Source of the DNA: Dactylellina haptotyla
Taxonomy: Eukaryota > Ascomycota > Orbiliomycetes > Orbiliales > Orbiliaceae
NCBI GenBank assembly: GCA_031310005.1
Contig: CM062381.1
Span: 62,001 to 126,000, forward strand
Length of the DNA: 64,000 nt
Direction of reading: 5' to 3'
Below are positions 11,614 through 47,606 of this stretch, piece by piece (positions within the stretch are counted from its first letter, which is position 1; every line of letters begins with the position of its first letter). A program made the position numbers and the translations under genes. Below the pieces are notes generated by a model. It saw nothing but the letters and a program-made list of their open reading frames with translations. It ran no database searches and was not told the DNA's origin.

Positions 11614-14600
11614 ATGGCATCTACAACAATGGAGCCACTCGCAGTTGTTGGACTTGCTTTCAGATTCCCTTCCGGAGCCAATGATGTCGAAAAATTTTGG
11701 GAAATGATTGTGACAGGAGACACTGGGCTGAAAGACATCCCTCCTGATCGATTTAACCTAGAAGCCTTCCGAAATGCGGCCATCGAAAATGATTCCAAAG
11801 GCGATACAGTAAGCTTCTGACACCATTCTACACAAACTCAAGGCGAGCGGCAGTTTTATCAGGCTGACAGAAAATTATTCTAACAGACTACCGGTAAAGG
11901 TTACTTTGTGGATGGCGATATCGCTGCCTTTGACGCTCCTTTCTTTTCAATAACGGCGGAAGAAGCGATATCAATGGATCCCCAGCAAAGGATCCTACTC
12001 GAAACGCTTTACCATGGCATCGAAAATGGTAAGCAATTTGAAAATTTACATTCGTAGTCGCTTGTTAATCTTATATGTGATAGCCGGTATGGATTTTAAT
12101 ATGCTAAAAGGGAGCAATACTTCTGTTCATGTTGGGTGTTTATCACAAGATTATAAACTCGCTTATACACGTGACCCAGAATTTGAGCCGAAGTATATCG
12201 CAACTGGCACAGAGCTAAGCATATTAGCGAATCGTCTGAGCTGGTTCTTCGACTTGAAGGGACCAAGTATAGCAGTAGAGACTGCGTGTTCTAGTAGCCT
12301 AGTTGCTCTCGACTTGGCTAGCCAGTTACTCCGAAATGGCGAAACAAATATGGTATAGTGTGGCCAAATTTCTGTTCTAAGGTTTTACAATATCTGATTT
12401 TCAAATACGATACCAAGGCGGTTGTTGCAGGTGCCAGTTTAATACACATGCCAGATCCTTATATTTCTTTAGGGAGTATGGGGTTTCTTTCTCCGAATAG
12501 CAGATGTCATAGCTTTGACTCTCGGGCAAATGGGTATGCCCGTGCGGAGGGATTTGGCGTGGTATTAATTAAAAGGCTTTCAGATGCTATAGCAGATGGT
12601 AACACGATTCGATCTGTTATTCGAGCCACTGGTAGCAATTCCGATGGTTACACTCCTGGAATTACGCAACCGAGTGGAACAGCCCAGACTTTCTTAATTA
12701 AAGAAACATATAAAAGAGCAGGACTATCTATGGAGCCGACTCGCTATTGTGAGGCTCATGGAACGGGTACCCCTCTCGGAGACCCGATCGAAGCACATGC
12801 AATTGGGTCAGCTTTCCGCTCCGTCCGCAACTCACAGGACCCTCTGTATATGTGTGTTAACCGTTTTCACGAATCCCTGGTCATTGGACTTATGGATGAC
12901 TAATATATACTATAGAGGATCGGGAAAGGCCAACCATGGTCATATGGAGGCGGCTAGTGGGATTGCAGGATTGATTCGGACGATACTAATTCTTGAACGA
13001 GGAATTATACCACCAATTGCTGGCCTTGTCACCCTGAACCCTAACATAAAGTCTAGGATTTATAATCTCGAGGTAAAATTTCTTTTGATATCGGTCTATA
13101 TTTAACAGCTAACAATACGTAGTTCCCAAAGAAAGCAGTACCATGGCCGAGCGAAAAATTGCGCAGAGCATCGATCAATTCATTCGGAGTTGGTGGCACA
13201 AATGCTCATGTAATATTGGATGATGCTTATAACTTCCTTGCAGAGAATGGGCTTGAAGGAAGACATAATACCACCATTACACATCAAGTTAATGGCTGTG
13301 AGAGATCTGTCATTTCGACGAAAGCGAAGCTTAGCTACGAAACGGTAAACCCGTTCACACCCAATACTTCAATTTCCCATCCGTACCTCTTGACCTTATC
13401 AGCGGCTGACCGGGATGGAATTAAACGCATGGGAGAATCGTACGCCCAATATTTTGCAAAGGTGTCCGAGACCAACACCGATGAGAGAGTACTTCAACGG
13501 CTAGGATTGACACTCGAAAAGCATCGCCCAGCTTTATCATGGAGGTCTTATGCCGTTGTGAACTCAACACAAAAGCTTGCATGTCTTGGAGAGATAATAT
13601 CCGAGCCAAAACAATCATTCATCAACCCCAAAGTTGCCTTTATCTTCACAGGCCAAGGTGCCCAATGGGCCAGAATGGGTGTGGAACTACTGAAATATCC
13701 CGTATTTAATGACAGTATTGAATTGTCAGCGAAGTATCTTAGAAGCTTTGGATGTGCTTGGGATTTAAAAGGTGGGTGCAGCATTGAGAGATCGAAGTAT
13801 CGAGTTTAAAGATTTCGCTAAAATAATATACAGAGGAGCTATTATGTCAAGCTTCAGACTCTAGAATCAATGATCCAGATATCAGCCAACCAATCAGTAG
13901 CGCTGTCCAGATCGCTCTAGTAGATCTTCTAGAGAGAGTCAATATAAAACCTGCAATGGTTATTGGACATTCGTCTGGCGAAGTGACCGCTGCGTAAGTT
14001 TCCCCCGCATAAATTGTTGCAAACTGATATATTGATGTAGCTGTCACAGATACTGTAAAGGCGCTATCTCGCAGGAAAGTGCTATGAAAATTGCATATTT
14101 TAGAGGTATGGGTGGTGCAGCAGCTTCAAAAGACCTTATAATTCGCGGGACGATGCTCGCCGTAGGCCTCGGCGAAAAAGAATTACAACCCATCCTGGAA
14201 GAGCTTGCATTAATGGGACATAATGATATTCATATGGGGTGTATAAACAGTCCTAAAAATGTTACAATCGCTGGTAATATTGATCATATCGATGCTTTTA
14301 GCGATCTTATGGCGTCAAGATTCAAAGGCGTTTTTGCACGCAGGCTTAAGGTATCCTGTGCATATCACTCTCCCCATATGATAAACATTGCAGAAAAATA
14401 CCTTCAGTTAGTTGGGTCGCTCGATCAACGAACGGGGAATAGTGAGTCGATCCCTATGATATCTTACTTAACTGGAAAAGAAATTTCTAGTCGGCGACTG
14501 CAGAAAGTGGAATATTGGAAAGAAAACATGTATTCAACCGTTCACTTCGTCAAAAGCGTCAATCATGTGGATGAATCCGCAGGTCTCGCCAAAGGGCCGA

Positions 14601-17600
14601 AGAAAATTGACTTGAGCCACAGAAAGGGTGTCTTAATTACGAATTTCTTGGAAATTGGGCCTCATAGTGCTTTGAAAGCCCCTCTTCGGGAAATAGCGCA
14701 AAATTTTCGGTTTGCAAAAAATTTAGCATATGACTCAGTCCTTTTTCGAGGCTGTTCAGCGCTGGACTCATTTTTTGGAGCAGTGGGAAGCTTGCAATGC
14801 TCAGGCTTTAAAGTGGATATTTCCTATCTAAACAACGGCCATGAAGTCAAACCTCGCGCCCCATTACTAACACCACTACTCAATCTTCCAAGTTATCCAT
14901 TTAATCATTCTTGCACCTACTGGAAAGAAAGCTCTCGGATTAAAAGCGAAAGGTTTCGCTCACAAAAACCAAAAGAAATCCTAGGAACCCCTACGCCTAA
15001 CTGGCATCCTTATTCAGCTCAATGGAGACATTTTATAAGTCGTTCGAAAGTTGAATGGATCAATGATTATGCAGTAAGTTATTCAAGCAACTATCCTAGT
15101 GCAATAGCTAAAAGTGGTGTTAGATCAACAACAACATTTTATACCCTCCTGCCGGCTTGCTTTCCATGGCTATTGAGGCCATGGATCAATACGCACAAGT
15201 GGCTATTGGTATATTGCCAGCTGCGTTTTGCCTACGCGACATTAGATTCATCGACTTGTTAATCATACCCGATGGCGAGGAGCTGGAAACTCAGATTAAT
15301 TTACGTATTCTGGGAGAAGGCTTACCAAGCCTTGACGCCTGGTTTGAGTTTGAGATAGTAACAAACAAGCATGCTAATTGGCGACAAGTATGCAAAGGAT
15401 TAATCCGTGCGGAGAAGGAATTTCAAGGTAGCAAATCTTCCGATGGTGGCCACTACGGCGATGTTCAATCATCGATTGACCCCAAAGAATTCTACCGAAG
15501 TATTGGCGCAGTAGGGTACAATATCGGCCCAACGTTCCAAAGAATTCGTCACTCTGTCAAATATACCCAAGAAGGAATTAAAGCGATGGTAGAGATCTAC
15601 AGGAAACCGGAGGAGCCATATAGCTGGGCCGCACTGGATCCAACGCATGTTATCCATCCAATAACATTAGACGCTCTCTTCCAAGTTCATTTGGCCGAAA
15701 TACTTCGAATATCGTCAAAATTTATGCCATTGATGCTACCGTCTAAAATAGGAAGCTTATGGCTGTCGCGTGATGGTTTGAACCATCAAGGCTCCTCAAA
15801 CTTATTTGCTGCGAGTCAAGTTGAACATTACGGAAATGACACTAGCGAGAGCTCTATCTCAGTCATCGATTCTGACAATTTACGAAGATTAGAAGTGAGC
15901 AGATTGGAGATGTCATGCATCAAGAACGACTCAAGGTCCAAAACTGAGCATCACAATTGCTGGAAGATTGACTGGACAAAGGTTCCTTTCGCATCAGAAT
16001 TGACCAATGGATTCTCCGATCGGGCCTCAGAAGCTAATCTGATATTCATTGAAGTACATGTATTGGACCCAACTTCTGAGACCAAGGCAGTAGCCATGGC
16101 TTTACAAACAACGCTGCACCAACAAGGGCGCTTACGATGTGGGGTTATTAATTCTCAGAAACTTGCCAGGAATCATAATCACAAGGCCCCAGAACTTAAA
16201 ATAATACTGTGGGACTTGGAGCGGCATTCAATCTTAGATGATATAAGCGAAGAGCACTTTTTGATGCTACAAAATACTCTTGATAGCAACAACCACATAC
16301 TTTGGATCCGGACATCAGATCCATTATCAAATAGTTACTGTTCTCAACACTTGATAGATGGGTTATCTCGAGTGGTACGGCAAGAACACAACATGAAAAA
16401 CTTTGCTACGCTCACAATCGGGAGCAAGAAGCTAGACAGCCGCGTTAAAGCTATAACTAAGGTTTGCAACATGCTTCTTTCAGATACGGAAGATAGCCCA
16501 CAGACTTTCCGAGAAACAGTCGAAGGCGAAATTCAAGCATGTGTATTAAAGAGCATACCTACGCTAACTCAACGAGCGCAGCTTGCACAGAAAGATGCAA
16601 AGCCTCGGCCAGTCCTTATTCCATGGGATACCATTGTTCCCCTCAAAATATGCCCAAGCTTATTTGAAACCCCGGATAGTATCTATTTTATTGAAGATCT
16701 AGCATATTATAATCAACTTGAGGATAACGAGGTTGAAGTGGAAGTGAAAGCCATGGGCCTCAATTCCAAAGGCTGTTTAAACTCCTTAGGAACTATCAAC
16801 GAAAAAAGTATCGGTGTTGAAGTTGCAGGCATTGTTACCCGTATTGGTCACGATGCTGAAGGTCATGGCTTTTTACCAGGTGATTCTGTCTGTGGATTTT
16901 CACTTGATAGCTGCCGCATGTTTTCTCGAAACTCGGGGAAATACTTCTCTAAGATACCGGAATCTCTTACACTAATCGATGCGGCTTCTATAATTAGCCC
17001 ATTTGCTCTTGCTTTCCACGCGCTAAAATATATCGCTCAGATAACAGCAGATAAGACTGTCTTAATCCTTTGGGACGGAGGAACAACTTGCCAAGCTGCC
17101 ATCCAAGTGGCTCGGTGTCTGGGGGCATCCGTGTTGGTGTTGATTAACTCGGACGAGAAAAGCCATCATGATCGCGAATTGCTTACAACACAATATCGCA
17201 TTCTGCCTGCTCATATTGTCGATGGTAGAGAAGCCAGTGTTTTGAAAGATATCAAGCAATTAACAAACAACCAGGGCATTGACGTTGTTTTTGACTCGGT
17301 GTCTTGGGAGGTCCCATCGTACCTTTTGGATTCTCTCACACCCTTTGGCCACTACATAGAAGTTAACTCACATAACTGGGTTACCCGAATACCATTACAA
17401 AAAGGGCTTTCGTTTAGTACGGTGGATTTAAGTCAGATATTTATCAAACGGCCCGACTACATCAAGAAAATTGTCGACGAGATATTTGGGCTCTTTGAGA
17501 AGCACCGATTACGGAATGTACAACAAACTCGCAAATTCGGTATTGAAAACATCATAGAAGCCTTTCGTACCATAAAAGCGGGAAAAGAAAACCGTAGCAT

Positions 17601-18915
17601 AGTTATTGAAACTAAGGCTTCATGCGAGATCCCGGTATGTAAAATATTCCTGTCCTATTCTCCAAAAGATCTATATTCCTCATACAACTTTGATAAACTT
17701 ATAGTCTGTCTTGACGCCAAAGTCTGGGGCAACTTTTAAACCGAATGCGTCTTACGTGATCGCTGGAGGTCTTGGCGGTCTCGGACGCGATATTGCCCGG
17801 TGGATGGTATCCAAGGGTGCGAGGAGCCTTATTCTTCTATCACGATCAGGTTCAAAGTCAGATTCGGCGAAGGCATTTATCACTGAAATAGAGAGCATGG
17901 GTGCGAGTTGTGTTGCACCAGCATGCGATATCTCCAACCAACTATCGGTTGAAATGATATTGAAGACAATTTTAAAAACTCTGCCACCAATCAAAGGGTG
18001 TATCCAAGCCTCTATGGCTCTTCAAGTAAGTACTCTTAACAAGATTATATTTGAAATTATGTGAAGCTTACTGTTGTTCAGAATATTCGATTTCAGTCTA
18101 TGAGCTACTCTAAATGGACCGAGCCAGTCGCTTGCAAAGCATCTGGTAGTTGGAACCTACACTTGGCTTTACCAAAAGATTTAGATTTTTTTGTACTTCT
18201 TTCTTCCATACAAGGATTGATTGGTGGTAAAACCCAGAGCAACTATGCTGCAGGGAATACGTATATGGATGCTTTAGCAGTTCATCGCGTCTCGCAAGGA
18301 TTGAAAGCAGTATCTATATTACTTGGGCTAATGGAGACAGATGGGTATTTGGCGGAACATGAGGATGAGAAAAAGCTTATGCTCGCACAGAATACTTATG
18401 TTCCGGTCGATCGCTCAGTTTTCCACACCTTATTGGACTATTATTGCGATAGTAATTTACCACTATTGGCTTTGGAAGAGACGTGGGTGGCAATCGGTCT
18501 GAAACTATTAAATAGAGATCCTGAGCTCGACGCTCTTGGGACGGGTTGGGCTAGAAATCCTATGTTCCGAGAACTCCGCCTGCTCACCGATACAACCGGA
18601 ATATCGAAAACAAACAAGAACGATACCATATCGCGATTCGCATCAGTAAAATCCGATAGCGAAGCAGCCGAAATTGTTACAGAAGCCTTAGCGGCGAGGC
18701 TCGCCTCAATTATATCAGGCACACGTCCAGAGGATATTGATACAAGCAAGTCCGTTCAAGCGTATGGGGTCGACTCTCTACAGACAATGGATTTGCGAAC
18801 ATGGTTTTCAAGATCTTTTCGATCGGACTTACCTACATTTGAAATTCTAGGGGCTGATTCGATCATTTCCTTGGCTCAATCCGTGGTTGAGCGAAGCGAA
18901 CTTCGTCTAAAATGA
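11614..18915 (+). CDS. Highly reducing type I polyketide synthase
   Basis: Eleven exons join in frame to 2231 aa: 11614-11808, 11887-12028, 12084-12352, 12418-12851, 12916-13072, 13123-13771, 13834-13993, 14050-15073, 15124-17634, 17705-18025, 18082-18915. Domain order is KS, AT, DH, structural KR, ER, KR, ACP; there is no methyltransferase between DH and ER. KS keeps Cys181 (ETACSSS), His316 (EAHGTGT) and His356 (GKANHGHME). AT has Ser662 in GHSSGE. The DH first motif reads WINDYAINNN with Tyr1009 where the catalytic His belongs, while the second-half Asp1193 ([10 protein letters not shown]) is kept. The ER nucleotide loop is [11 protein letters not shown] (near 1657-1667), unlike the usual GGVGQ form. 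KR has GGLGGLG plus Lys1973, Ser1995/1996 and Tyr2009. ACP has Ser2186 in GVDSL. It is expected to build a polyketide from malonyl units in the cytosol. No release domain is present; an FSH hydrolase gene lies in the cluster. Confidence 0.93.
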
Positions 18916-21414: not shown

Positions 21415-22942
21415 TCAGACTGTATTTAGCGTAGTTTGCATTCTTCGAATTATCCGTAGAAGCTCGATTTCCTTTTTATCTATCGCATCAAGTGCCAGAT
21501 GAGGAACATCAATAATTGACGGAAAAGCTTGACTACTTGATCTTGAAGTTATAAGATTGTCCATAGTTACGTTGATCATTTGGAAGCGATTTAAGAAGTG
21601 ACCTATTATCTCAAGAAAACATGAGACTTTCAAGTTAAGAAGATGCGGCAGAGAAAAGATTCCGGTATGAGGGGTTCGGCCATAGTTATCAGTCGAGTTG
21701 CGCCGTCTTTGCCGAAACCACTCTTGAATCTGCAGCAATAAGCTTCGGTAGATCGTAAGAAGCCGTTCTCTACAGGATATTAGAACCAAAAGTGCCGTTG
21801 AATCGTTGAGGATTGAGTGATGCTGGCTATTTGATACTATCTCTGAGAAACTTGAGTTCAGGCGCTTTCTACCTTCACTAATATTGTCATCTGTTTCCGA
21901 GCTTCTCTCCGATAGCAAGCCGCTAGATAATGAGCAGATTTGGCGATAAATATCGAATAAATAATGAGAAAGTATAAAAGTTTGGTCCATATAATGAAAA
22001 TGATTGTCTAGTATATCCGCTGTTGATTTAATTCTTGACGGTTTCGTTTGATTGGCTTCGGTCAAGTCCTGTAGTGATTTCGATTGTGCACATAATGCCG
22101 CATTCAGCTCTAAAACTACCTTCATCCAATCAGGGGCTTTAGAGAGCTCCTGAGTAGTCTCGGGCTTTTTTGATGAATTTCGGTTGTTTGGCGACGGTTT
22201 AAGGATTCTATTTTTCTGCAATTCAAATGTCGCTTGCGTTCGATTGTAGAGACTCCCAGGACTCTCTATTTTACTTTTTTCATGGATAATACTTCTTAAG
22301 CTTAGAGGTGGAGATAATAATGACGATGAGTGTCCCTGTTCGGTGTTCTCTGTTGGTTCATGGGGGTTCTCTGTTGGAATTAAAAATTCTGCATCGAAGA
22401 TGCACTGACTAAAGTCATCGAAGTCAAGTTCTAGGTCGTAGCCAGCGTCTGAGTTTTCGAATGATAGATTCATTCCACTATCCTCATTATCAATCGGATC
22501 ACTCTCTTGTGAAGCGGCTATATCGTGCCTCAGCTCAGCGGCAATGGAAGCGCCACTTTCAAGGCTATATTCCACATGATCTGCGTTATCCATTTCATCA
22601 TCTGTCGAATCAGGCGAGGGCGAACCAAATATATCCTACGATGGTATTAGCTGCCAGTTTATATAGGGTAGACTAGATTCGAATTTATACAAAAGATGAG
22701 TCTGAGAGACTTCTCTGGAATTGAACCTCCGAGTTTCCTATTTTGGCAACGGACTTTTCTCCCTCTTTAGATGAGGAGTCTTGAATTGATTGACGTAGCC
22801 TTCTCGGCTTCGGGGTGATACTACATTCTAGTCCAGATTTGATACAGCGCATACATGGACTCGTAGCGTTCCTTCGCTTGCATGATAGTTTTTGCCGATG
22901 GCATTTATCACAAGCGCGACGGTTCTTCTGAATCGGAAACAT
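21415..22942 (-). CDS. Zn2Cys6 transcription factor, probable cluster regulator
   Basis: Two exons (22942-22691 and 22635-21415, minus strand) flank a 55-base intron and give 490 aa. The N-terminus has a fungal binuclear zinc cluster with spacing C-x2-C-x6-C-x6-C-x2-C-x6-C (starting ACDKCHRQKLSCKR at residues 10-23), followed by a basic linker (KPRRLR). The region encoded by exon 2 is acidic and Ser-rich (DIFGSPSPDSTDDEM, then LDFDDFSQCIF), then becomes helical with Leu-rich stretches. This arrangement, with no fungal-specific TF domain visible, is like aflR-type pathway regulators. It lies about 2.5 kb downstream of the PKS, tail to tail, so control of the surrounding biosynthetic genes is a strong inference. 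Its binding site was not identified. Confidence 0.88.
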
Positions 22943-25900: not shown

Positions 25901-28273
25901 GGCGACCTATTTTCGTCCAGATCTATAAAACGCTTTGGTGAAATCAATCATAACCGCTCGGATGCTAGCTGTTTTGATGGTGTGATCGGGCGGGATGCCT
26001 TGCGAATTGTGAGAAGTGATCGTCAAATAGTCAGATAAACGAGATGGATTCGTACTTAGAATCTCTTCTTTCTAGTGGTCACCTCCTTCATCTATCAACA
26101 AAGAGAATAGTGCAGATTTTCGCGCTTCGCGATGCGACACAACTTTCCTAGACCGTCTTTAGGTGGGTCTGACACATTATCATCTTTATCGCATTCTTCA
26201 AAGAATTTGAACTTTATTAGTAAGTTTTCGCGCTCCATGAGACGTTAGTAAAATCTCTTTTCTTTATTTTGGCTTTTGCGATGACGCTTAGCCTAACTTT
26301 CCATTTAGCAAGATGATTTTTTACACATTAGGTTCGTTCATACTATATTTTTGTGCTGGAAGGACATCATAACCCAATATAGTAATATTAATCACTATTA
26401 CAGCTATCAATATGGTTGTGATGACACACTTATATTGTGTTTATGAATATATATATATAGGCACTTTGATTCTTTTGAACGAAAAGTGCCCTTTTTCTTT
26501 GAGATTTATTTCTATGTCTTAGCCACTGGTAGACGACGACCTAGGTAAATATAAAAGTGCGTTGAAACAGCCTAATGAAGAAATGGGTCAAAGGGAGATA
26601 ATTCATTCTTATATTTTTTTAGAACTTTCTTCACTGAATGAACACTCTCTCAAAAGCGTTTGAGTTCTAGTACCATTATAATTAAGAAACTCGAGAACTT
26701 CTTACTCTCTACGCCCGCCAGACTTTTGCAATTTAGTCCGAGATGCTTTTGAAATTCAGTCCGAGTCACTTTTAAAATCCCGAATCACCCAAATACAAAA
26801 GAGTCCGATCAAGCCGTCTTATTGTCTTCCTAGTTTTTCAAGAGAAAGGTTTTCTTTAGGTAAGTCGCTTCCGAGTCAATTTTCCACCGTTCTCCTATCA
26901 TTTCCGAACCTTGGCTCAGCAGTGCGAAGAATTGCATTCCTCTACTTCGGCGTTTTGTGGGGATTTTTGATAAAGATAGCTCGGCACTTTGAGATTCGGT
27001 GTTTCCTTGTGTTGTGGCTCACCTCGAACCAAAGCAAACAACACAGGTCGTGGCTTTCAAGATTCCGGACCAATCAAATGCAATGCCCAATCTTGTATTG
27101 ACCGTGGAACTCAGTCGCCTAGCCGTGCCCTCGCAATCTGTAGTTACTATATAGGTGTCTACTTCCGATTACGGTTGCCCATAATTTCAACAATGAGGCT
27201 AGATAATATATAATATATTGAGTAAATTATTAGAAAATAATGGCTTTAAATACTCTGGATTCTGATTTGGGATCGCCCTAGATGATATTTGTTTATCATA
27301 TAATGTATTGGTTAGTAGTCAGGTAGTCAGACAGGTAGCTGACTGGGTAAGTGGCTCGTTATAAAGGTAATGTAATAGTGTATTATGCCTGGTCAGCTCT
27401 TATGGCTCTGCGTGATAGGCTTACCTGCTGCGTTTTTAGTTGACTGGCTTACTGACTGCCATTGGAGCTAGGCAAAGCACCTATAATATCATTCATCCAG
27501 CAGTTAACTGTTGTAGGCAGGCTGTGCGTATGGAGTCACGTCTACGAAGGTACCGTGTGATATCAGGAAAGAATGATGATCTACTATTGCTACTGTCTGT
27601 TATTATTTTATCTATTTGGTTTCTTTGTTCTCTCTGCCGGCCACGTGAATCGTGTGTTGCCAGTTGGTGATGAAGCAACTAGGCTGCTGCTACCACAGAA
27701 TTAACCAGTATAATGGATTATAAGTAATTATACATCAAAGCAGCCCAAAATCAACATCTAAACTATTTGACATTGTTATATTTTAATTATTTACTTAGTA
27801 TATATATTGATACCTAGCCTGTTAGTCGAGATATGGGGGCTTCATGCTATAATATGTTTGCTATAGGTGTTCTGTTTTCAAAATTCAAATTACTTAGTTA
27901 GTTAGTGTGCAATCAAGATATCAATTGAATTGTTCAAAAGAATAAAACTGAAACACGTTAACACCTGGGACCAGTGTAGCAAGGTATAAGTAAGGTAATC
28001 GATGTGGAAGTGAGACGGTCGCAAATTTGAAAATTAAACAATCAATAATAGAAAAGAACAAAAATTATGTTAATTTTATACTGGGTCTAATCAGACTCAA
28101 ATTGCTGGATTTTGAGCTGATCGTACGAAATATATGATAAAGCTTTTTGAATAACTCCCCGTACTGAGACTAAGGGGTAAGTTGTTTTGTAAATACACTC
28201 AATCCTGTCGCTCCGCATCTATTTAATTGTATCTCTTAGCTAGCATTATGCTCGCAGGAATCTCATATTCCAT
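22943..28273. other. 5.3-kb gene-poor stretch
   Basis: No gene is supported on either strand. The longest frames (for example 25132-25509 minus, 23504-23773 plus) lack ATG starts at their reported ends or any recognisable motif. The stretch is AT-rich and includes a short AT dinucleotide run near 26448 and an LTR-like repeat copy (27509-27707). It splits the cluster into a PKS/regulator part and a tailoring part. Confidence 0.55.
27509..27707. repeat. Diverged interspersed repeat, possible solo LTR fossil
   Basis: A segment of about 200 bases starts TGTTGTAGGCAGGCTG and ends near CCACAGAATTAACC. It is related to the segment at 48149-48358: both share GAGGCAGGCTG-like starts, a T-rich centre with TTCTTTGTTCTC, a GCCACGTGA block, and a GCTGCTNCC end. 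Size and TG start suggest an old isolated LTR; no internal coding part is seen, and the family is unknown. Confidence 0.4.
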
Positions 28274-29149
28274 TTATACCAACGGTTCATCGATCCCCTC
28301 CAGCAGTTTGTGGATGGTGTCGATTGAATAATTCAAAATTTCAGGAGCCCTTCTACCGGGTACCTGGTGGCCCTCGTTGTGTACATATGAGTGTCTAAAT
28401 TTTGAATCGCATAAAAGCTCTGTAGCGGCACTTGCTTTCGAGTACATGAAATCGTTTGCAGCCCAGATGTGAGCCGTAGGTATCGATATCCGGTGTTTGC
28501 TATTGCTATCTCTTAGTTCAACAATTTCATTATTTCGAAGAGCTTCAACATCAACTGCGGCACCCGAGCAAAAGAAAATAGCGCATTTGAATGAGCTTTT
28601 CCAAGCATGCCCATTCTTAATGGCAGATAGCTCTTTAGCTAGTGCCCAAGTTGAGAATAGTGATCCACCCTGCGAAAAGGCAATGACAGCATCGTAAGGG
28701 TCCTCAGCTTGTAAGTAACCATCCAAACACTCCAGTGCTGTTAAAAAAGTGGATGCATCTTTAGGGTCGAAATATCCAAAATAATTCTCATCGTCCGAGA
28801 ACATATCCCCAAGCTCTGAGTTCTTATATTAGGCGGTGTATCTTTAGCTTATTGAAGGTAGGGTACAAACCTGGTGCCTTTGGCCAAGCCATTACTCCTT
28901 CTACGAAGTCATATTGATGTTTCCCTCGAAGCCCGGATCTTATTGCAGCTGTTGAATTCGTTAGAGCAAAACGGATTCTTAAAGGGAAGGCGATCAAAAA
29001 AAATGATTAAGGGGTTTAATTACCGGTTTGAGTTTCGAAAACCTTTTAATTTAGTTAGCAACAACCCTTACTTTCAGTTGGCAAGATTGCAATATTTTAT
29101 CACCCACATTACTATTTGTACCAAGACCATGAAGACAGAGAAATCTCAT
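28274..29149 (-). CDS. FSH-family serine hydrolase (LovG-like group)
   Basis: The main exon is 28815-28274 and an upstream exon ends at 28871 on the minus strand, joined across a 55-base intron to read DFVEGVMAWPKAPELGDMF. The N-terminus MRFLCLHGLGTNSN starts at 29149, but the junction between it and the middle exon (region about 28960-29110) could not be fixed. The fold is alpha/beta hydrolase: the nucleophile elbow is AFSQGG, the acid lies in IWAAND, and the base in HNEGHQVPG, completing a Ser-Asp-His triad. The first Gly of the usual GFSQG elbow is Ala. Fungal FSH proteins in HR-PKS clusters, such as LovG, act as free-standing thioesterases that release the chain. The PKS here has no release domain, so this role is likely but inferred. 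Confidence 0.78.
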
Positions 29150-30439: not shown

Positions 30440-31853
30440 ATGACCGGCCCTTTCGCCATTCTACCACAAAAGTTTCTTCAGTCTATTAAGGATACAAGGG
30501 TAATTTATAAACGTCTTGGTGGTTTAATGATATCAAATCCTATAATGGGTTGCATGGGAATTAGTAATCCAGCATGGTGGAACTGGGTGCTTGATCAAGA
30601 TAAGGTTTGTTCCCTGTAAACTGATTCGAAGGTTATATTATCAACGCAAAGTCTAGGGAATTTTCGTTTGCAGGCACTCCCGCTCCTAAACGAGGCCATC
30701 GAATCTGGTATCAACACAGTACGTCTACGGCTCCAACTTCCTGAAAGGTGTTTGTCTTACAGGCTATACCATCGTCCTTGAGAAAGGACAAGATAATTGA
30801 CACATGACTAATCTGTGTAAATTAGTTTGACACAGCCAATGTGTACTCTAACGGTGCTTCTGAACGGTTAATGGGCCAAGCACTTAGAAAGTATGAAATT
30901 CCACGTCGAAAGGTAGTGCTCATGACCAAAGTTGGACGAGTGATGGCGGATGGTCATGATGAAGGGATTCCATTCATGTATAATGAGGCATCACAAAGTA
31001 AAGACCATGTTAACCAGTTTGGTAAGAGAAGTAACGCCAAGACACAACTGAAAGAGTCTTAAACTAACTGTTCAATCATATCAAAAATATCGACAGGCCT
31101 TTCCCGAAAAGGGATTTTTGAGTCTGTAGAACAGTCTTTAAGTCGTCTGGGTACATCATATATCGATGTTTTACATATTCATAGATATGATCCCTTTACA
31201 CCACCAGAAGAAACGATGAAAGCGCTCCACGATCTAGTTACTTTAGGCAAAGTTCGTTACCTTGGTGCAAGCTCTATGTGGACCTACCAACTTGCTAGTT
31301 TACAATTTATAGCCGAGAAGAACGGTTGGACTAAGTTCGTTTCTATGCAAAACCATAATAATCTTCTTTATCGAGAGGAAGAAAGAGAAATGAATAAGTT
31401 TTGTGCAGAGAACAAAATCGGCATATTGCCTGTAAGTGTAGCGATGTTTCAGAGATAGACTATTCTGATCTCCGGGATAGGTTATTACGAGGTTGACCGT
31501 CTAAATAGTGGGCCCCACTAGCATCCGGACATCTAGCGTGCTTGCCTAAAGAGTACGGATCATCTGCTAGAACAGCAGATAACTCGAATAACCCTCGGTT
31601 TTCTTACGGGCAAAGTGCAGACGATATAGAAATAATAAACAGAGTTGCAACACTCGCAGCGGAGAAAAATTGGACTATGACAGATGTTAGTCTATCATGG
31701 CTGAATAAACGTTGTACTTCTCCTATAATAGGTATATCAAGTCTAAAGAGGTTGGAGGCTGCTATTTCAGCACGAGGAAAAGTCTTAAGTGAGGCTGAAG
31801 AAGCGTATCTTGAGGAACCCTATATTCCGAAAGCAATTGAGGGCCATTTTTAA
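30440..31853 (+). CDS. Aldo-keto reductase
   Basis: Five exons (30440-30604, 30674-30718, 30826-31021, 31097-31431, 31509-31853) with introns of 69, 107, 75 and 77 bases give 361 aa. The catalytic tetrad is visible: Asp72 and Tyr77 in [10 protein letters not shown], Lys105 in VVLMTKVGR, and His164 in VLHIHRYDP. Later marks include [31 protein letters not shown] and the spliced [11 protein letters not shown]. The layout matches the fungal aryl-alcohol/versiconal-type group of NADPH-dependent AKRs. It should reduce an aldehyde or ketone in the cytosol. Location in the cluster suggests it acts on a PKS-derived carbonyl. The neighbouring FSH gene is divergent, so the two may share regulation. Confidence 0.88.
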
Positions 31854-33026: not shown

Positions 33027-33944
33027 CTACTTCCCTACTTCACAACTATCAACTACTTCCAACCTTCTAGTATATGAATCATCCGTGGCCGGGATTGATG
33101 CTTCTGGATCTTCTTCTGCATTTTGAGACCTGATAAGATTGTACAAAAGTTGCGTGTCCATGTTTAACTCTGTGCAAAAAGCAAAGCCGGCGACCCAGAA
33201 GGTCCAGGCACCGTTCCAAGCAAGAGGCCCCGAGTGGAAAGCATGAACAACAACCGTTGGCACATATAATAACGGAAAGAGAAAGTTTACGAAAGCCATA
33301 TATTTTGGAATGAGGGGTTTCGGTCGATTATCGATGATGATAGCGTAGGCGAAAGCCATATTTTGCACAAAGAATGATGGCCACGGCATTGTAATGGATA
33401 ACCAAAACAACTCATTCAATGCTTGAGTGATCTCTGGGGGCCGGTCTAGACGGAATGCTGCTGTGCCTAGAAAGACCCCAGGCATCATAAAACCGAACAC
33501 ACTACCGGCGCCACCAGCTAGCTGTAAAGCGCTGACAAAGTAGGGTACGTTTGGAATTCGACGAATTTGAGACGAGACTAAGACAGTGTAAGGAAGATAG
33601 AACAATCCTGAAATCATCAATAACGCCGCCCCGCCCATGATGCCTTTCTCGTGGTCTTTGTAGTGTTTCACCGTTCGCTCAGCATCCCACCATGGCCTCG
33701 GTGGGGGCAAGAAGCCAGAGGCTATCATGCATAGGAAAAAACAAAGTCCACTAAGTGCTCCTGAAAATGCACTGAAATATTGAACATTTTTGAACGATAA
33801 TGCACGGGATTGGCCTAAGCGTGCGAGGTGGTGTTCAAAGAACGCTTCCATAGTGGAAAAAAGGGAGGTGTGAGGTTTAGCAGGTGGTAGCACGACTGTG
33901 CTAGGTCTTTCCGGGTGGGTGAGATACGGCAGCATGAAGTACAA
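33027..33944 (-). CDS. Multi-pass membrane protein of unknown function
   Basis: A single open frame of 305 codons. Starts are possible at 33944 or at the internal Met at 33851 (MEAFFEHHLARLG), and the latter is better placed before the first membrane segment. About six hydrophobic segments can be seen, roughly at residues 57-80, 101-122, 135-165, 178-204, 215-238 and 246-262. They include LSGLCFFLCMIASGFLPPP, MMPGVFLGTAAFRLDRPPE and FFVQNMAFAYAIII. It is too short for an MFS transporter and has no ABC or P450 features. The C-terminus is polar and acidic (EEDPEASIPATDD). Its place among biosynthetic genes suggests a role in the pathway or product handling, but this is only positional. Confidence 0.7.
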   Translation of the reverse strand: MYFMLPYLTHPERPSTVVLPPAKPHTSLFSTMEAFFEHHLARLGQSRALSFKNVQYFSAFSGALSGLCFFLCMIASGFLPPPRPWWDAERTVKHYKDHEKGIMGGAALLMISGLFYLPYTVLVSSQIRRIPNVPYFVSALQLAGGAGSVFGFMMPGVFLGTAAFRLDRPPEITQALNELFWLSITMPWPSFFVQNMAFAYAIIIDNRPKPLIPKYMAFVNFLFPLLYVPTVVVHAFHSGPLAWNGAWTFWVAGFAFCTELNMDTQLLYNLIRSQNAEEDPEASIPATDDSYTRRLEVVDSCEVGK

Positions 33945-35252: not shown

Positions 35253-37028
35253 TCACATCTTCCTCCGTTTGATTCCTGCTACAGGCCCTTTTTTCAACGT
35301 TAAGAAATAGTCTAGACATTCCCAACCACCATTCGAACTCTCGCCAATCTTCCTAAGACTTTCGTCATCTGGTATAGTGAAATCGAATTCCCAGACTAAT
35401 CTTGCAATTATAATCCTCATTTCCATCAAAGCAAGGTTTCTGCCCATACAGGCTCGCGGGCCTATACTAAAAGGGCAGAACGCATACTTCGCCTTTTCAA
35501 CATCGGATTTTGTGATCTTTCCTAATTGAGGGAAGTATTCATCCTCAATCCATCTTTCCGGAATGAACTCATCAGCACAAGGGTATATCTCTGGATCTCT
35601 ATGAACTGTATAGATTGGGGTTCCAACAATAGTGCCACCCGGAATGAGCTTTTTATCAATAATTAAACCGTCATCTAGTACTTCTCTTTGGATATCCCCA
35701 GGAACCGCGGGACTGATTCTCATGCTCTCGTTTATTACTGCATTGAGATAAGTGCAATTCCGCAATGCTGGATTACTTCCGTGAACAATTTCTTCTATAT
35801 TTTCGAAAGTACCCCGAATTTCTCTCTCTAACTTCTTCAGCACCCTTGGAGTCCGCAAAAGCCAGAAAAATGCAGCAGAGAGACTACTAGAGGTGGTGTC
35901 CGCGCCAGCTGCGACTAATAGACTGCTTTCACTCCATAGTTCTGGCAAAGGTAATTTTTCCCCTGTTTCAGGGTCGGTTGCGTTGAGTAAGTAATAGAAA
36001 AAATCCTTTCTTGTGTTCTCAGGGTTTTTGGTACGTTCGCTAATACGACCTGCTACGTATGCACGAGTTTTTTTCGTAAATATGCGTCGATTTTTAGCCA
36101 TTTGGGGAATAAAAATTTCATCCAGTCGATAATTACTCATCGCAGGCCAAAGTCCGCACTGCAATAGCAGAAACCTCAGCGATTAGCCTTTTCGATAGTA
36201 TTCTACCATGATATGCCAGTTACTTACTAAATGATTTCTAGCAATCGTGTCCTCCGTTTCTTGATGCATGGCTTTGTCGCCGGTTCCGTCAGTGTGTCCA
36301 AACGTTTTGCCGAAACAAAGATTTCCCAGCACATCGAACGAGAAGCAATTGAACCAATCTGCCATATTCCTAAATTTCACAGAGTTGCTGTCGTATTCTC
36401 CAGTATCATTACCATATCCGACATACTCTTTGGGAGCATTGATAAGTCGCTGCTGCAGTATGCGGCAACAATCCAAAACAAGGTCTTCCACCCCTCTAAG
36501 CGCAGTTTCACTAAATGCTTGAGATAGTATTCGTCGTTTCCGGCTATGAATATTCTTATCTATTGCGCTATGTACGCTTGGCTTGGTTTTAATGGCAGGA
36601 AATACTGTATAGTATTGTGATTTTTGGAGCTTGCTGGAGTGTCCGTAAATAGTATGCAAGGCGTCGGGGGTACAAATAGAAATGTAGCCCGGGGCGATGC
36701 GTACGTGAGTACCATATTTTTGGTGCAACAAATGCAACCACATGTAACGATTGCCTTTCAATCCGTGGTAAAGCTGAGCGAGAGGTGTGATAGAACATAT
36801 TAATGGCCCGGGGAAATTCCGAGTAGGATGGAGGAAGATGTTGTAAAAGGTGAGACAGAAGAACTATACATTATAGTATAATTAGATGGTAACAATAACT
36901 GAGATACGTGGAATTGAGATATAACTTACGTATAAGGTTATGATTGCGACAGCGCCAAGGGCTAAGCCGGCCAGACCGATATATTCTGCACCGGACCCTT
37001 GGATTCGCCCCAGTACTTTACTTATCAT
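35253..37028 (-). CDS. Cytochrome P450 monooxygenase
   Basis: Three minus-strand exons (37028-36930, 36863-36228, 36158-35253) with introns of 66 and 69 bases join in frame to 546 aa. Exon 1 encodes a membrane anchor (YIGLAGLALGAVAIITLY) for the ER. The proline-rich hinge reads NFPGPL after the first junction. The I-helix has AAGADTTSSS, the K-helix ExxR is NESMR, the PERF-type motif is PERW, and the heme loop is FSIGPRACMG with Cys482 as iron ligand. All catalytic marks are intact. The Met at 37028 is preferred because it starts just before the anchor. It probably hydroxylates or oxidises the polyketide product. The EthD gene is divergent across about 780 bases, suggesting shared control. 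Confidence 0.92.
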
Positions 37029-37806: not shown

Positions 37807-38328
37807 ATGAATACCGAACAGTTCATTCGTATTACTATGCTCTTCAGGAAACATCCAGACATTACTTATGCGAAGTTCCACGAGCATTGGGCCCATGTAC
37901 ACGCGCCTCTTTGTACAGAGTGGATGAGAAAATACAACATCCTTCGATATACCCAGGTAAAAGTCTTATTTGGCATTGACCCCTTTATTATAACATGTCG
38001 TTGTATATTCTAACGATTATCATCAAAGAACCATATCAACCGAGATCAAACTTTCGGCCTTCATAAAAATTCTTTGCCCTGGTTGCCAGTTGCCGCGTAT
38101 GATGGCATCGCAGATTTCTATGTGCGGGACCTGAAAGATTGGGTGGAGGCTGTTAAAGACGACTATTATGAAAAGATTCTAATCCCTGATGGCGCTATTT
38201 TTGGCGATCCTGTTTGTTCTTTTCTTGCAGTTGGGAAAGACTATATTGTTATGGATAGTGGGGAGGTCGTGATGGACCATACAACCACCTATTTAGAGCC
38301 TGATATGGCAACAACGGCTGAGGTTTAG
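37807..38328 (+). CDS. EthD-domain protein
   Basis: Two exons (37807-37956 and 38029-38328) separated by a 72-base intron give 149 aa. The N-terminal half carries the EthD/ferredoxin-like dimeric barrel motif: MLFRKHPDITYAKFHEHW followed by AHVHAPL. The second half contains YDGIADFYVRDLKDW, typical of the same family. Start at Met37807 (MNTEQF) puts the first beta strand at residues 6-10. Fungal EthD proteins in polyketide clusters are small cytosolic enzymes or helpers linked to decarboxylation, dehydration or ring-forming steps on polyketides. The neighbouring carboxymuconolactone-decarboxylase-like gene points the same way. The exact reaction cannot be deduced. Confidence 0.82.
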
Positions 38329-38798: not shown

Positions 38799-39482
38799 TC
38801 AGGTAGCGCATTTTTCCGAAATTGGCCAAATTATTTCACCTTGAGGAACAGGAATTCCGCCACCGTTTAGAATGAAAGCCGTATGTGTATAAAACCCAAT
38901 CCACTGAATAAGTGCCCCTGTCCCTACTCTACCAAAGGTATTTTCAGCCTTCTGCCATAAATCATCAGGCAAAGAACCCTTTTTAAACTTGCTACCAGCT
39001 CCACACAAGTTCCGTGCTATCTCCCAGCTCATAAGCTCCTGCTCAGTACCATCCGAAAGCGATCTGCCATTTAGCAGATCCTCTATTTGAAGGTCCGAGA
39101 ATCCAAGGGTTTTGGCTATGCGTACATGACAATATAACATAAATTCAACTCCGTAATGTTCTGCAACAGTAAGGATTGCCACTTCCCGGCACCGTATCGG
39201 GAAATCAACGGCACGTAATGAGGCTGCCATTATGTCATATCCGATGTAGACGGAACTCGGGAAGTACATAAAATGTTGCCATAAACCCACAAGGGCCCCC
39301 TCTTCATTTTTGTAAGTGAAGCTAGTAGCAAGTTATTTTAGTGTTCGTTACCTTAAGAGCTTAGATTAAGAAGCTTACCTTCCGGAGACAAATCTGGCTA
39401 CTACTTCATCGATATACCGGTAATTTGATTTTTGTTCCGGACTTAAGGTACTAGGGTCAAGAGGAGGAAAGCGTGTCGACAT
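38799..39482 (-). CDS. Carboxymuconolactone-decarboxylase-like (AhpD fold) protein
   Basis: Two minus-strand exons (39482-39379 and 39321-38799) with a 57-base intron give 208 aa. The N-terminus MSTRFPPLDPSTLSPEQ and the spliced SFTYKNEEGALVGLW are typical of fungal CMD-family proteins. The core CREVAILTVAEHYGV, then CHVRIAKTLGF, fits the AhpD/CMD helix pair; the redox CxxC of true AhpD is absent, so peroxidase activity is unlikely. CMD-like proteins in secondary-metabolite clusters are thought to act in decarboxylation or aromatisation-type steps. It is convergent with EthD and divergent from the acyltransferase gene, in the densest part of the cluster. Confidence 0.82.
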
Positions 39483-41712: not shown

Positions 41713-42587
41713 ACTTTTTTTCTATAGCAAGATTTTGCAAACAAAGAAATACGCCGTCTATTGGCAAATCCTGAACAACAAATAAATCACGAATGATAGC
41801 GAGATACGAAGTACCTTCTTGGTAATCCAAACAATGCCACCCTACAAGTGGCCCACCGAGCGTATTTTTAAGTAGTAGCTAAGCGAAGATTAGAAACTAA
41901 TACACTAAGTCGTAATCTACTCCGGCGAATCTTGTCTCGTAAACTACAGTCTCGGCACTACAGTTTAGTTACGAGACTGCATAAACCAGACGCCAGTCCA
42001 CCAGTGAACAAACAACGCACTATTCGGCGTGGGCCACTTGACAATGTTTCAGTCTCGTAGCCAGCGCTTTGAGTGTTTCCGTTTGCAACTCTGGGCATCC
42101 GACAAAAGCTCTTTTCATTCACCGGAGCCGATCTTCGCGGGGGAGAATGCAGCTTAATCTCCGAACGCTTTCACGAAGAAATTTACGACTCAGGTCTAAG
42201 CTTTTTATCTAGTCGAGCACAATATGGCTTAGCTTAACCCAGAACCTCGGATATCCGTTGTTCGCGCAAAACGCATCTTCTCAATTTGGATACTTTATTT
42301 AGCCACGAAATCGAATTTGCTATAATTGATAAATGGTAGTTGACTTGAATTTGCTTGTATCTTTGCAATCACTTCCCAAAAAAATTGCCCTTCCAAAATT
42401 CGTTCAAGTAGATAAGCTTCAGGTTGATTATCTAGTATGTATTTCCCTTTTTTTTTGCGCTCAGAGGAAATATCCATATGCAAATGACGTGCCTCAAACA
42501 ATTAAAGACTCTACCTTGGGTGGCTCCGATAACGATGTTAATATTTACAGGTTTGCCGAAAAATAATTATCGAATAAGAGATTCTCC
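41713..42587. other. Intergenic with foldback element
   Basis: About 875 bases with no gene. It holds the inverted-repeat element at 41845-42040 and the promoter of the downstream SDR gene. Confidence 0.5.
41845..42040. mobile_element. Candidate foldback or MITE-like element
   Basis: The segment begins CAAGTGGCCCAC (41845-41856) and ends with the exact reverse complement GTGGGCCACTTG (42029-42040). Inside it, CTCGTAAACTACAG (from 41936) and an imperfect mirror CAGTTTAGTTACGAG form a second palindrome. No coding frame is present and no clear target-site duplication is visible. Short non-autonomous DNA transposons have this design, but the call rests on the inverted ends only. Confidence 0.42.
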
Positions 42588-43810
<1,223 letters not shown>

Positions 43811-44350
43811 ACTTACGATTCTCGAATGGGATTTCATTTTAGCAAAAAGAAAAGAAACTTTGATCTGTATGGATAAAGACCCAGTATTTAACTGCTGTTT
43901 CAATACAAGTTGATTTCGTATCTATCCGCGCAAATTGGTTCAAATGTGATCTCTTTTGATGATCGGAAAGTCATTATTTATCCAGTGCCACCAAACTATG
44001 CCTGATTCGGAGAATTAGAACGACATAGGACCGAGATAGGAGACGTACAGAATTGCCCTGGCATACTAATACTAATAGACCTATTCGACCTCCACACCAA
44101 CCGAGTACTCATTTTACTTACTCTAGATATCAAAATAGCGTATACTTTCTTGTATAATAACATGAAATCTATTAGTTTGGTTTATATAAATATAATGTTG
44201 CGATATACTCCGCTACCTCTAAACAGTACCTTGGCTATGTGGAACCGTTTGTCCCTATATGAAGTGCATGGCTGCTACAAGCAACTCAATGATTCAAAAG
44301 TTGCAACGACAGTTCTCAAAGCCAAAGCCTCAGCAAAGATTTAAACAGTC

Positions 44351-44371
44351 GTAGCTATGGGGCATAGCTAC
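44351..44371. repeat. Short hairpin
   Basis: GTAGCTAT and its exact complement ATAGCTAC flank a 5-base loop (ggggc). It lies in gene-poor DNA and is not followed by a T-run, so a terminator role is not supported. Confidence 0.5.
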
Positions 44372-44595
44372 CCCTACCAATCGTCAGTCATCCGCCCGAA
44401 TGCTACGCAAAAAAATTTGTTCCGATTCGGCAATGCAGCCATCGTAAAGAAGTATTATTTCTATTGCAACTACTTGTGATTTAAACCTAATGAGTAACAG
44501 TCCAGAAACTCATACGTTATGCACCATTGTTCCAGAATTCAAAAAGCTACATGACTTCATAGATTCAAGAAAGTAACCTTTTTATACATAATGCT

Positions 44596-45043
44596 TGTCT
44601 CGTAAACCAGATGCCGTGACATAATGCCAAATCGATCGATATGATTACCTCTTTGCAAATTTAAAGTCAAACTGATGTAATTTCTTTTAATTCCAGATTT
44701 TATCGAATTTAGTCTATAGTTATCAAAGAGCATTATCAATGTACAATTTAAGGTCTTTGGCCAAGGTCAATAGTCTGGGCACATTTGACAGGAACTTAGG
44801 TCCCAACCAACGAAAACAGTTGGATAATTGATGGAATTTATTATTCATATGCCGGTTTTTTTGTGCAATGATGATGATAACGATGATGATGATGATGATG
44901 ATGATGCCACTGCTTTTATTGTGATTGATTGCTTAACTAATTTTCCACGCCGGATCGCAAACAGAGGTCTGCGTTGTTAGAGAGAGACAACAATACATCG
45001 CATCACATTACATTACCAACCAAACCTCCTGGTTACGAGACTG
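44596..45043. repeat. Inverted pair of a CTCGTAACCAG-type motif
   Basis: TGTCTCGTAAACCAG (44596-44610) is matched in inverse by CTGGTTACGAGACTG (45029-45043), about 450 bases apart. Related copies occur near 41934, 42051, 47791 and 47921, so the motif is scattered over the right arm of the cluster. It may mark ends of small non-autonomous elements. Confidence 0.4.
44868..44907. repeat. GAT trinucleotide microsatellite
   Basis: About thirteen GAT units with one interruption (ATAAC). Simple repeat without a coding role. Confidence 0.9.
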
Positions 45044-46011
45044 CCAAACCTCCATTTACGACGAGTACGAGTATCAGATCGAGAGGCAAAACAAGGTGCT
45101 CAGACATCCGAATAAACCTCATACTACGGCCGTTCTGTCAGAATTCCTTCAGGCGACTTCATCACTTCACAACTTCTAATCTAATTTTTCCATTTTCGAA
45201 ATATGACAACATGTAAAGTGGGGTTTCCCCACTGAAAATACGGCAAAATGGAGGTAACAGCATAGACAAATCGGAATAAGAAGGGAATATCGATCCGAAG
45301 GCGGCGTGGGAATGATGAGATGCCAGATAATTGTATTAAGCTCGGTACAGTGGAAAACGAGGGGGTACCTGGCTCAACTCAATCCGATGAATTCTATTTC
45401 TTTAGTTGATACCAATACCATTGAAGGACCGTTTACGAAGCTTCCATATTAAGCCAGATTATCTACATGGCCGATAGTGAGAAATATCCGCCGAAATCAC
45501 TCGGTCGGCGTGGGCCACAAAAACGCCTACTGCCATGGTGCAACATGATTTCGGACAACACGGAACTTACTCTGAGGTCCGGCTCTACGGTGGACACCAA
45601 AACCTGTTGGGTTTATCGGAGGATGAAACCAAACTCTGCAGATAGCTTTGATTATTATTATTTTTTCTGAAAAAGAATGAAGATCAAAGTTTTTTGCGAA
45701 ACGTTTACTGATTCGGGGATAGACAGAATTCTTTGTTCGGGCTTCGGCCTTTTATGATTCAAGCAGGCATATTTGATATAGCGTCATATTGATGCAGCCA
45801 CCTGTTGGTAATTGACAGTAGATTTCAATTCGAGCTCGGAGGGAGGGATAAAGATTTATAGTAACTGGGTTTAGACTTTGCTTCGAACGTCTGAATAGAT
45901 AATGTACCCAGCCTCCCAACAATTATTTGAGACTTAAATATTCGAACAACTATTTATATCTAAGCAATACCATTGCATAGAGATTCACTTACAGGTGAAT
46001 ACAGAATTAAA

Positions 46012-46058
46012 ACACACACACATACACACACACACATATATATATATACATATATACA
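46012..46058. repeat. CA/TA dinucleotide microsatellite
   Basis: Runs of CA pass into TA. The tract sits about 40 bases before the start codon of the medium-chain reductase, in its presumed 5' leader or core promoter. Confidence 0.85.
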
Positions 46059-46099
46059 AGTGGCGCCGGCTTATAACTTCCTATTTTATATCAATCATT

Positions 46100-47606
46100 A
46101 TGATGTATAAGACAAGTCAATGGCGACTGAAAGAAAGGGCAGGCGATAATTTTATCCCTAGCGAAACTTTCGAGTTGAGTAAAAGAGAAATATCAGATAG
46201 TGAATTAAGAGAAGGCGAATTGTTAGTTAAAAACCTTTATTTCTCGAATGATCCATGCCAGAGATCATGGGTAGATAAGACGATCGATGAAAAGAGGCTT
46301 TTCAGAAAGGCAAGTAAACTAATAAATTTTACGGGACTTATTCTATTTCTTCTTCCATCTTTCTTATTTTTGGTTATCTATTCATTATTTGTTTTTCCTC
46401 TGGTTTTACTATTTAGCCAAGGCTTGAAGTCATCAAAGAGGAAATTGTTCTTAAAAACTCTATATATCACTCTATTAACGGGCTTTCACTAACAAGAGCA
46501 TTTATACTTCGTTTTGTAGCCGATCGAGCCTGGTGACTTGATGGAAGCTTGGGGCATCGCAGAGGTCGTTGTGAGCAAATGCTCAGTCTATGAGAAGGGC
46601 GAGTTGGTTATAGGCCCACTATTTTGGGCAGAATATAGTATAATTGACGCGGGTACGATCTGGTCAAAAGCTACTGGAAATCCTACAGAGACCTTAGCTT
46701 TGAGCTTGAATGTAGGTCTACACGAAGCGATTTATATTCACCATATTAGAGAGGAAAATGTCTCATAGCTTTGAAGCTAACTGAAGAGCTGTAGGGGTTA
46801 ACGGCATATTTCGGTCTTTTGAATGTTGGTCGTATAACATCTGGGGATAGCGTTGTCGTAGTATCCGGTGCAGCGGGTGCTACTGGTTCTATTGCTTGCC
46901 AAATCGCAAAAAACGTATATGGGGTTAAAACAGTAATTGGCACTGCAGGATCTGATGAAAAATGCAAATTCCTTACGAAAGAGTGTGGTTGTGACATTGC
47001 ATTGAATTACAAGTCTCCAAGCTTTGATGATGATTTTATTTCTGCGACTAAGGACGGAATTGATTTGTATTTTGATAATACAGGGGGGCATATCTTGAAT
47101 TTGGCGGCATTAGCGATGAGAGAATTCGGGAGAATAGTAGTTTGTGGTTCAATCAGCAACTATGATCATTTGGACGGGAATACACGTACCCAAAAGGGCG
47201 TACTCTCAACGATGGCCTGGCTAGGGGTCGTAAGTAATAGGCTTTCGTCAATTAACTTATATCCTTTAAACAAGAAAATGCTAACTATAAGAAATTCCGG
47301 TATAACATAATAGATTGCTTGCAAGCTCAAGATAGAAGGGTTCATTTACTTTCAATTTCTCGACCAATTCCCCAAAGCATTGAAACAGCTTGAAACTTGG
47401 ATCCAAGAAAACAAGATTGCCGTTGTCAAAGATATATGGGAAGCCGATATAACAGAGGTCCCTGAGGGTTTGTCAAAATTATTGCACGGGTATGTCAGAT
47501 AGAGGAATGCCATTACAAAGTTGACTGAGCTAACGACTACCAATTCTGAAAAAGGAAAAACGTTGGAAAATATATAACAAAACTAACAAGGGAGGGCAGT
47601 CAATGA
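46100..47606 (+). CDS. Medium-chain NADP-dependent reductase (PTGR-like)
   Basis: Five exons (46100-46309, 46520-46711, 46795-47229, 47326-47489, 47555-47606) join in frame to 350 aa, the usual size for the prostaglandin-reductase/NADP-dependent MDR group. Marks are YFSNDPCQRSW, then IEPGDLMEAWGIAEVVVS across the first junction, GLTAYFGLLNVG across the second, the nucleotide motif SGAAGATGS, and the spliced end LLHGKNVGKYITKL. No zinc-ligand set is seen, consistent with a zinc-independent 2-alkenal or enone reductase. The first intron (210 bases) starts GCAAGT, a GC-AG type. The intron after 47229 is the least certain; stops in that stretch rule out read-through. It may reduce a double bond of the polyketide after release. 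Confidence 0.83.

Follow-up and report, generated by a model that had tools for sequence, protein, structure and literature searches.

The Dactylellina haptotyla window analyzed here (the whole stretch of 64,000 nucleotides, contig 3, positions 62001-126000, of a 39.8 Mb genome in 11 contigs) contains an uncharacterized PKS gene cluster that likely belongs to a set of at least five such loci in this genome, all built on an Orbiliomycete family of PKSs without a methyltransferase domain. Three of the loci share a core of genes for an FSH1-type serine hydrolase (FSH), an EthD-domain protein, a carboxymuconolactone decarboxylase family (CMD-like) protein, and a short-chain dehydrogenase (SDR), and the DH and ER domains of the PKS in the window are probably inactive.

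Gene content of the cluster

Eleven open genes of secondary-metabolism type were recovered between positions 11614 and 47606 by a gene finder and manual splicing. The bounds are the same as those of a preliminary description of this DNA, and its claim of eleven such genes in 36 kb is borne out by the gene models; both the genes and their co-localization are direct observations. The cluster occupies 74-110 kb of contig 3, near the contig end, and comprises:

11614..18915, + strand: PKS, 2225 aa, 11 exons, KS-AT-DH-linker-ER-KR-ACP, without a methyltransferase domain
21415..22942, - strand: Zn2Cys6 regulator, 490 aa, 2 exons, Pfam match to Zn_clus
28274..29149, - strand: FSH1-type serine hydrolase (Pfam FSH1), 226 aa, probable chain-release enzyme
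30440..31853, + strand: aldo/keto reductase (AKR), 361 aa, Pfam Aldo_ket_red
33027..33851, - strand: multi-helix membrane protein, 274 aa, without a family match
35253..37028, - strand: cytochrome P450, 546 aa, Pfam p450
37807..38328, + strand: EthD-domain protein, 149 aa, Pfam EthD, a relative of CTB10
38799..39482, - strand: CMD-like protein, 208 aa
40228..41712, + strand: PapA/condensation-like acyltransferase, 494 aa, single exon, HxxxDG
42588..43876, + strand: SDR, 338 aa, NCBIfam SDR models
46103..47606, + strand: MDR reductase, 353 aa, Pfam ADH_N_2/ADH_zinc_N

In the gene model of the MDR reductase, intron 1 (46310-46519) is of the GC-AG type, with a GC donor (GCAAGT). Measured in 2-kb steps over 10000-48000, GC content was 0.38-0.43 across the cluster versus 0.42-0.47 outside, and GC3 was lower in most cluster genes than in most flanking genes. 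The best upstream dyad, CGGN3CGG, was present in 6 of 11 upstream regions, with two gene pairs sharing regions, and counts of at least six for some dyad were reached in 2 of 200 shuffles. The sole repeat in the 23-28 kb gap was at 27509-27698, and these ~190 bases, or part of them, recurred at three other genome places with 73-80% identity. Beyond the cluster, the region 52730-63723 holds genes recognized by eye from translations only, one for a secreted protein with LysM-like repeats and one resembling a GH18 chitinase.

Sister PKS loci in the D. haptotyla genome

With P0060 as the query, the genome was found to hold the following loci of the PKS family, alongside more distant PKSs:

Locus A: the PKS locus of the window
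Locus B: contig 8, 503-510 kb, family PKS locus
Locus C: contig 2, 1292-1299 kb, family PKS locus
Locus D: contig 4, 2611-2619 kb, family PKS locus
Locus E: contig 10, 1763-1771 kb, family PKS locus

The PKSs of loci B-E were 51.1-53.3% identical to that of the window. In tblastn searches, nine of the eleven cluster genes (the PKS and eight others) had matches in the 118.8 kb around B-E, versus none of the seven longer gene models in the window outside the cluster, whether the low-complexity filter was on or off; the cluster set is therefore what stays linked. Among the four loci, FSH homologs were found at all four, CMD-like and EthD homologs at three each, SDR at two, and the acyltransferase, regulator, AKR, and MDR at one each. 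This disparity between cluster and flanking genes makes it very improbable that the cluster consists of the PKS, the regulator, and some neighbors while the other genes are unrelated, even though the P450 and membrane protein are unshared with the sister loci and the AKR and MDR each have just one of two other places near a family PKS.

Whole-genome searches, in which the counts of places are lower bounds, located FSH homologs at at least five places (A-E), all four of those outside the window being within 30 kb of B-E. EthD homologs occupied at least four places (A, B, C, and E; three of three outside the window within 30 kb of B-E) and CMD-like homologs at least five (A, B, C, E, and contig 4 at 3608 kb; three of four), the fourth non-window CMD-like place adjoining a more distant HR-PKS (contig 4, 3608-3615 kb). 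SDR matches of at least 49% were at A, B, E, contig 4 at 3601 kb, contig 8 at 487 kb (15 kb from B), contig 7 at 1768 kb, and contig 10 at 54 kb, such that three of six other SDR places were near B-E, as were two of four for the acyltransferase and one of two for the AKR as well as the MDR. The acyltransferase had a 45% homolog at B, a second near B, copies on contigs 1 and 6, and a fragment on contig 10; the second homolog near B (contig 8, 522643-523929) was 36% identical. AKR homologs were at D and contig 8 at 1747 kb, followed by weaker ones, and MDR homologs at C and contig 1 at 2756 kb, again followed by weaker ones. Within the flanks of the loci, the regulator had a partial match at C, 58% identical across the zinc-finger end (48 residues) and 32% identical across 116 residues. 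The P450 had no partner near B-E, and its best other copy in the whole genome (contig 1, 694 kb) is at a place without a family PKS, while no other copy of the membrane protein was located by these searches, near B-E or elsewhere.

Loci A, B, and E each carry all four of FSH, EthD, CMD, and SDR beside the family PKS. At E, these are arranged as FSH(-), EthD(+), CMD(-), SDR(+), with the same relative order and strands as in the window; the AKR, membrane protein, P450, and acyltransferase that are interspersed among them in the window are missing from between them at E. Locus C had no SDR match nearby, and D had FSH and AKR with no EthD, CMD, or SDR match. Random-placement figures were 2e-9 for FSH, 3e-7 for EthD, 1e-6 for CMD, 6e-6 for SDR, 3e-4 for the acyltransferase, and 0.01 each for the AKR and MDR; the identity limits behind those for SDR, AKR, and MDR were set after the lists had been seen, and since the loci may stem from block duplication, the per-gene figures are not independent and would overstate independence. 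The window AKR was 82% identical to the AKR beside the PKS of D (contig 4, 2625.2-2626.6 kb), whereas the two PKSs were only 51% identical, a hint of later exchange between the window locus and D.

The tailoring set had been described as unusual, yet it is not unique, because its core was found beside sister PKSs of the same genome; the protein-database search with the CMD-like protein gave no relative that would extend the set to other species. Membership of the outer genes, marked as inferred in the preliminary description, is supported by the sister loci for FSH, EthD, CMD, and SDR and more weakly for the acyltransferase, AKR, MDR, and regulator, and not for the P450 and membrane protein.

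State of the reducing domains in the window PKS

In Pfam searches, the window PKS matched KS, AT, DH, ER (PF13602), and KR above the cut-offs, while its ACP match, at 25.0 bits, fell slightly short of the cut-off of 27; the ACP serine motif, GVDSLQ, is present. The domains follow the HR-PKS order of KS, AT, DH, ER, KR, ACP. The domain and motif states are likewise direct observations, and the active-site motifs of an HR-PKS are not intact in two domains:

15068..15070, + strand: codon of PKS residue 1009, where Tyr replaces the DH catalytic His, from the sequence and alignments
17071..17094, + strand: PKS residues 1660-1667, WDGGTTCQ, where the ER of most relatives has an SGAGGTGQ-type nucleotide-binding motif

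Among the five own-genome paralogs, the window PKS alone has the DH His replaced by Tyr and the ER glycine motif lost; the other four keep both. Known DH domains require the catalytic His. When each of 28 family rows was compared to the PKS of B (to which P0060 is near-identical), the two lowest DH identities were those of the window PKS (42%) and of P0074 from A. entomopaga (41%), with the others at 46-54% and P0060 at 94%. The same two were lowest for ER (49 and 43%; others 52-72%, P0060 94%). The window KS (70%) and AT (56%) fell within or close to the spread of the other rows (66-77% and 55-64%, respectively), while KR (59%) was lower than is usual where the KR motifs are intact, and ACP (65%) was also lowered. 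The gene model for the PKS of C misreads the KS site, which lowers its KS figures, and the translated DNA shows that site to be intact. ER divergence is not limited to the window: it also occurs in the AOL_s00043g828 group, which keeps the DH His but has ER identities to B of only 52-56% and ER motifs that are altered in part.

Given the Tyr in place of the DH His, the lost ER glycine motif, and the unusual divergence of both domains, the window PKS is predicted to be a KS-AT-KR-ACP machine: DH and ER are probably inactive, and KS, AT, KR, and ACP function is probably kept. A new point is that, among five sister synthases, that of the window seems to have lost two of the three reducing steps. 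The earlier label of a methyltransferase-free HR-PKS thus holds for the missing methyltransferase and for the domain layout, but not for function, as DH and ER appear inactive.

It is unlikely that DH and ER remain functional despite these changes, as in an ordinary HR-PKS cluster yielding a normal reduced polyketide. The open reading frame is full length, the second DH residue, Asp, is retained (LDALFQ), the KS, AT, KR, and ACP motifs are intact, and Tyr also occupies the DH His position in four of 32 aligned homologs (P0066, P0074, P0080, and P0088); nevertheless, that reading has to accommodate the loss of a His regarded as essential together with that of the ER glycine motif, in one of the two rows most diverged in both domains. 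Decidedly unlikely is that the DH and ER changes are early signs of a PKS pseudogene in a decaying cluster. The window PKS does have a long end branch (0.93 on the whole protein versus 0.47 on KS, AT, KR, and ACP alone, the latter with a different row set), and the somewhat low KR and ACP identities and the site near the contig end are in keeping with decay, but all eleven genes are open, the PKS is intact across its 11 exons, and KS and AT are as conserved as in relatives. Moreover, P0074 is in the same state: it too carries Tyr in place of the DH His and has lost the ER motif, while its KS, AT, KR, and ACP motifs are kept. The window PKS and P0074 grouped with a support of 89 on the whole protein; this grouping was absent on KS, AT, KR, and ACP alone, with a p-AU of 0.193, a value compatible with both arrangements.

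The best 23 matches to the window PKS were all from Orbiliomycetes, with up to 52% identity for full-length alignments and 57% for part-length ones. Phylogenetic reconstruction placed it within an Orbiliomycete HR-PKS clade (23 rows versus 6 non-Orbiliomycetes, support 100), and a second tree returned the same placement (28 rows versus 2 non-Orbiliomycetes, support 100). Two clade members have the same layout, and their Pfam domain lists contain no methyltransferase family: AOL_s00043g828 (PKS I-1) of Orbilia oligospora (2248 aa) and H072_3762 of D. haptotyla (2198 aa); they are 50 and 52% identical to the window PKS, respectively, and differ from it in keeping the DH His. Across nine segments, the contig 8 PKS locus was 87-99% identical to D. 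haptotyla CBS 200.50, and a domain-wise comparison of it with H072_3762 gave 94-98%; the contig 10 PKS locus was 92-98% identical by segments to H072_11126 of the same strain. Such identities are those of D. haptotyla or a near relative.

Three further Orbiliomycete homologs, P0066, P0080, and P0088, had changed DH and KR motifs, so that other members of the PKS family show loss of reducing domains as well. A wider reading, which we regard as rather unlikely, is that one Orbiliomycete cluster multiplied and its synthases shed reducing domains stepwise, with the EthD-CMD-SDR core (plus the MDR here) dehydrating, cyclizing, and reducing in trans; it draws on the DH and ER loss in the window PKS and P0074 and on the DH and KR motif changes in P0066, P0080, and P0088. 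If true, the clusters would be a natural series for the transfer of programming away from the synthase and onto free enzymes, and they might serve in signaling to prey.

Tailoring enzymes and described clusters

The gene families are essentially as named in the preliminary description, apart from the acyltransferase, which had been called BAHD-type and instead looks PapA/condensation-like. BAHD acyltransferases have a PF02458 match and a DFGWG motif besides HxxxD; the window protein had no PF02458 match up to E 5, and no DFGWG was recognized in its translation, while HxxxDG is present and PapA_C matched below threshold (21.2 bits, cut-off 30). The Pfam families named above for the regulator, FSH hydrolase, AKR, P450, EthD protein, and MDR were all matched over their cut-offs, the EthD protein reaching 65.8 bits against PF07110 (cut-off 22). 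NCBIfam SDR models were matched by the SDR, all below their cut-offs. The FSH hydrolase matched FSH1 with 98.8 bits, and its Ser-Asp-His residues are present (Ser in AFSQG, checked against paralogs; Asp and His identified by eye from translations), such that by family and catalytic residues it is likely LovG-like, with a putative releasing role. Alone, the CMD-like protein reached 11.9 bits against PF02627 (cut-off 23, E 0.23), whereas in an alignment with its four own-genome paralogs all five members matched PF02627 at E up to 1, the best at 9.4e-9. A word-based search of a 5.8-billion-protein database returned 138 candidates, none a relative of the CMD-like protein at E 0.001; it occurs at no fewer than five places in D. 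haptotyla, yet had no relative in that search. Solved structures offered no meaningful relative of this protein or the acyltransferase. The membrane protein matched no Pfam or NCBIfam family and had 59 relatives, the best-scoring being fungal (~50% identical) and one mycobacterial (39%). Its predicted structure had a mean pLDDT of 90.6, and because the best PDB match of the model was only at E 0.084, we assign it no function.

In the reading that we favor, of a multiplied locus with a shared core and a PKS with inactive DH and ER, the PKS would extend malonyl units and reduce them with KR only, and the FSH hydrolase would free a little-dehydrated chain. The EthD and CMD-like proteins could then act in dehydration, decarboxylation, or cyclization of the released chain, with the SDR, AKR, and MDR tuning carbonyls and double bonds, the P450 oxidizing, and the acyltransferase esterifying a hydroxyl, under presumed activation of the cluster by the Zn2Cys6 protein. 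The EthD, CMD, and SDR steps would be common to the sister loci, and the AKR, MDR, P450, and acyltransferase would be additions.

Parts of this arrangement resemble characterized systems. As in the lovastatin system (LovB/LovG/LovC), the window has an HR-PKS with a separate FSH1-type hydrolase, and LovB was third among the solved relatives of the window PKS; LovG is the releasing hydrolase of the lovastatin HR-PKS. LovB carries a methyltransferase, which the window PKS does not have, and the DH of the latter looks dead. The window MDR has ADH_N_2, and a trans-ER role for it would be speculative. The EthD protein is a distant relative of CTB10 (profile E 7.5e-12, 48.5 bits) from the cercosporin pathway, which has a non-reducing PKS. 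EthD proteins have been considered putative decarboxylases in anthraquinone-type clusters, according to the available part of PMC4591646. The preliminary description knew of no pathway with EthD, CMD-like, and acyltransferase enzymes around a methyltransferase-free PKS, and likewise we found none in searches that covered an open-access paper collection, neither a paper combining EthD, CMD, HR-PKS, and gene cluster nor a title or abstract describing a cluster family of this kind.

The cluster itself has probably been cataloged already, as BGC 3.1 of D. haptotyla YMF1.03409. The available portion of PMC10580851 lists PKS clusters 2.1, 3.1, 4.2, 4.3, 8.3, and 10.2 as absent from the older genome, and we read the window cluster, on contig 3, as BGC 3.1 because KS matches here occur on contigs 2 and 3, at two loci each on contigs 4 and 10, and at three on contig 8, besides contigs 1 and 7, which fits these additional clusters. 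We infer the identity rather than observe it, since the assembly sizes differ: 39,806,839 in 11 contigs here, whereas PMC10580851 gives 39,557,028 for YMF1.03409, whose 11 contigs were joined into 10 scaffolds. The nosporins of D. haptotyla (PMC10672892) were considered as the product, and nothing was found to link them to the cluster.

Few PKS genes have been reported in nematode-trapping fungi (PMC6453484, in the portion available); nonetheless, a single PKS family accounts for at least five loci in the D. haptotyla genome, and three of these share an enzyme core. The sister loci are internal controls for the roles of EthD and CMD-like proteins beside a reducing-type PKS, and offer a naturally occurring contrast between synthases with the full domain set and one that would have lost DH and ER. 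In the presence of nematodes, a significant rise was reported for 8 of the 23 D. haptotyla clusters at 24 h and for 11 of them at 48 h; the products may hence bear on predation, although the available text of PMC10580851 does not reveal which clusters these were. In O. oligospora, deletion of AOL_s00043g828 gave three new HPLC peaks, neither furanones nor pyrones, as reported in the accessible part of PMC5930339.
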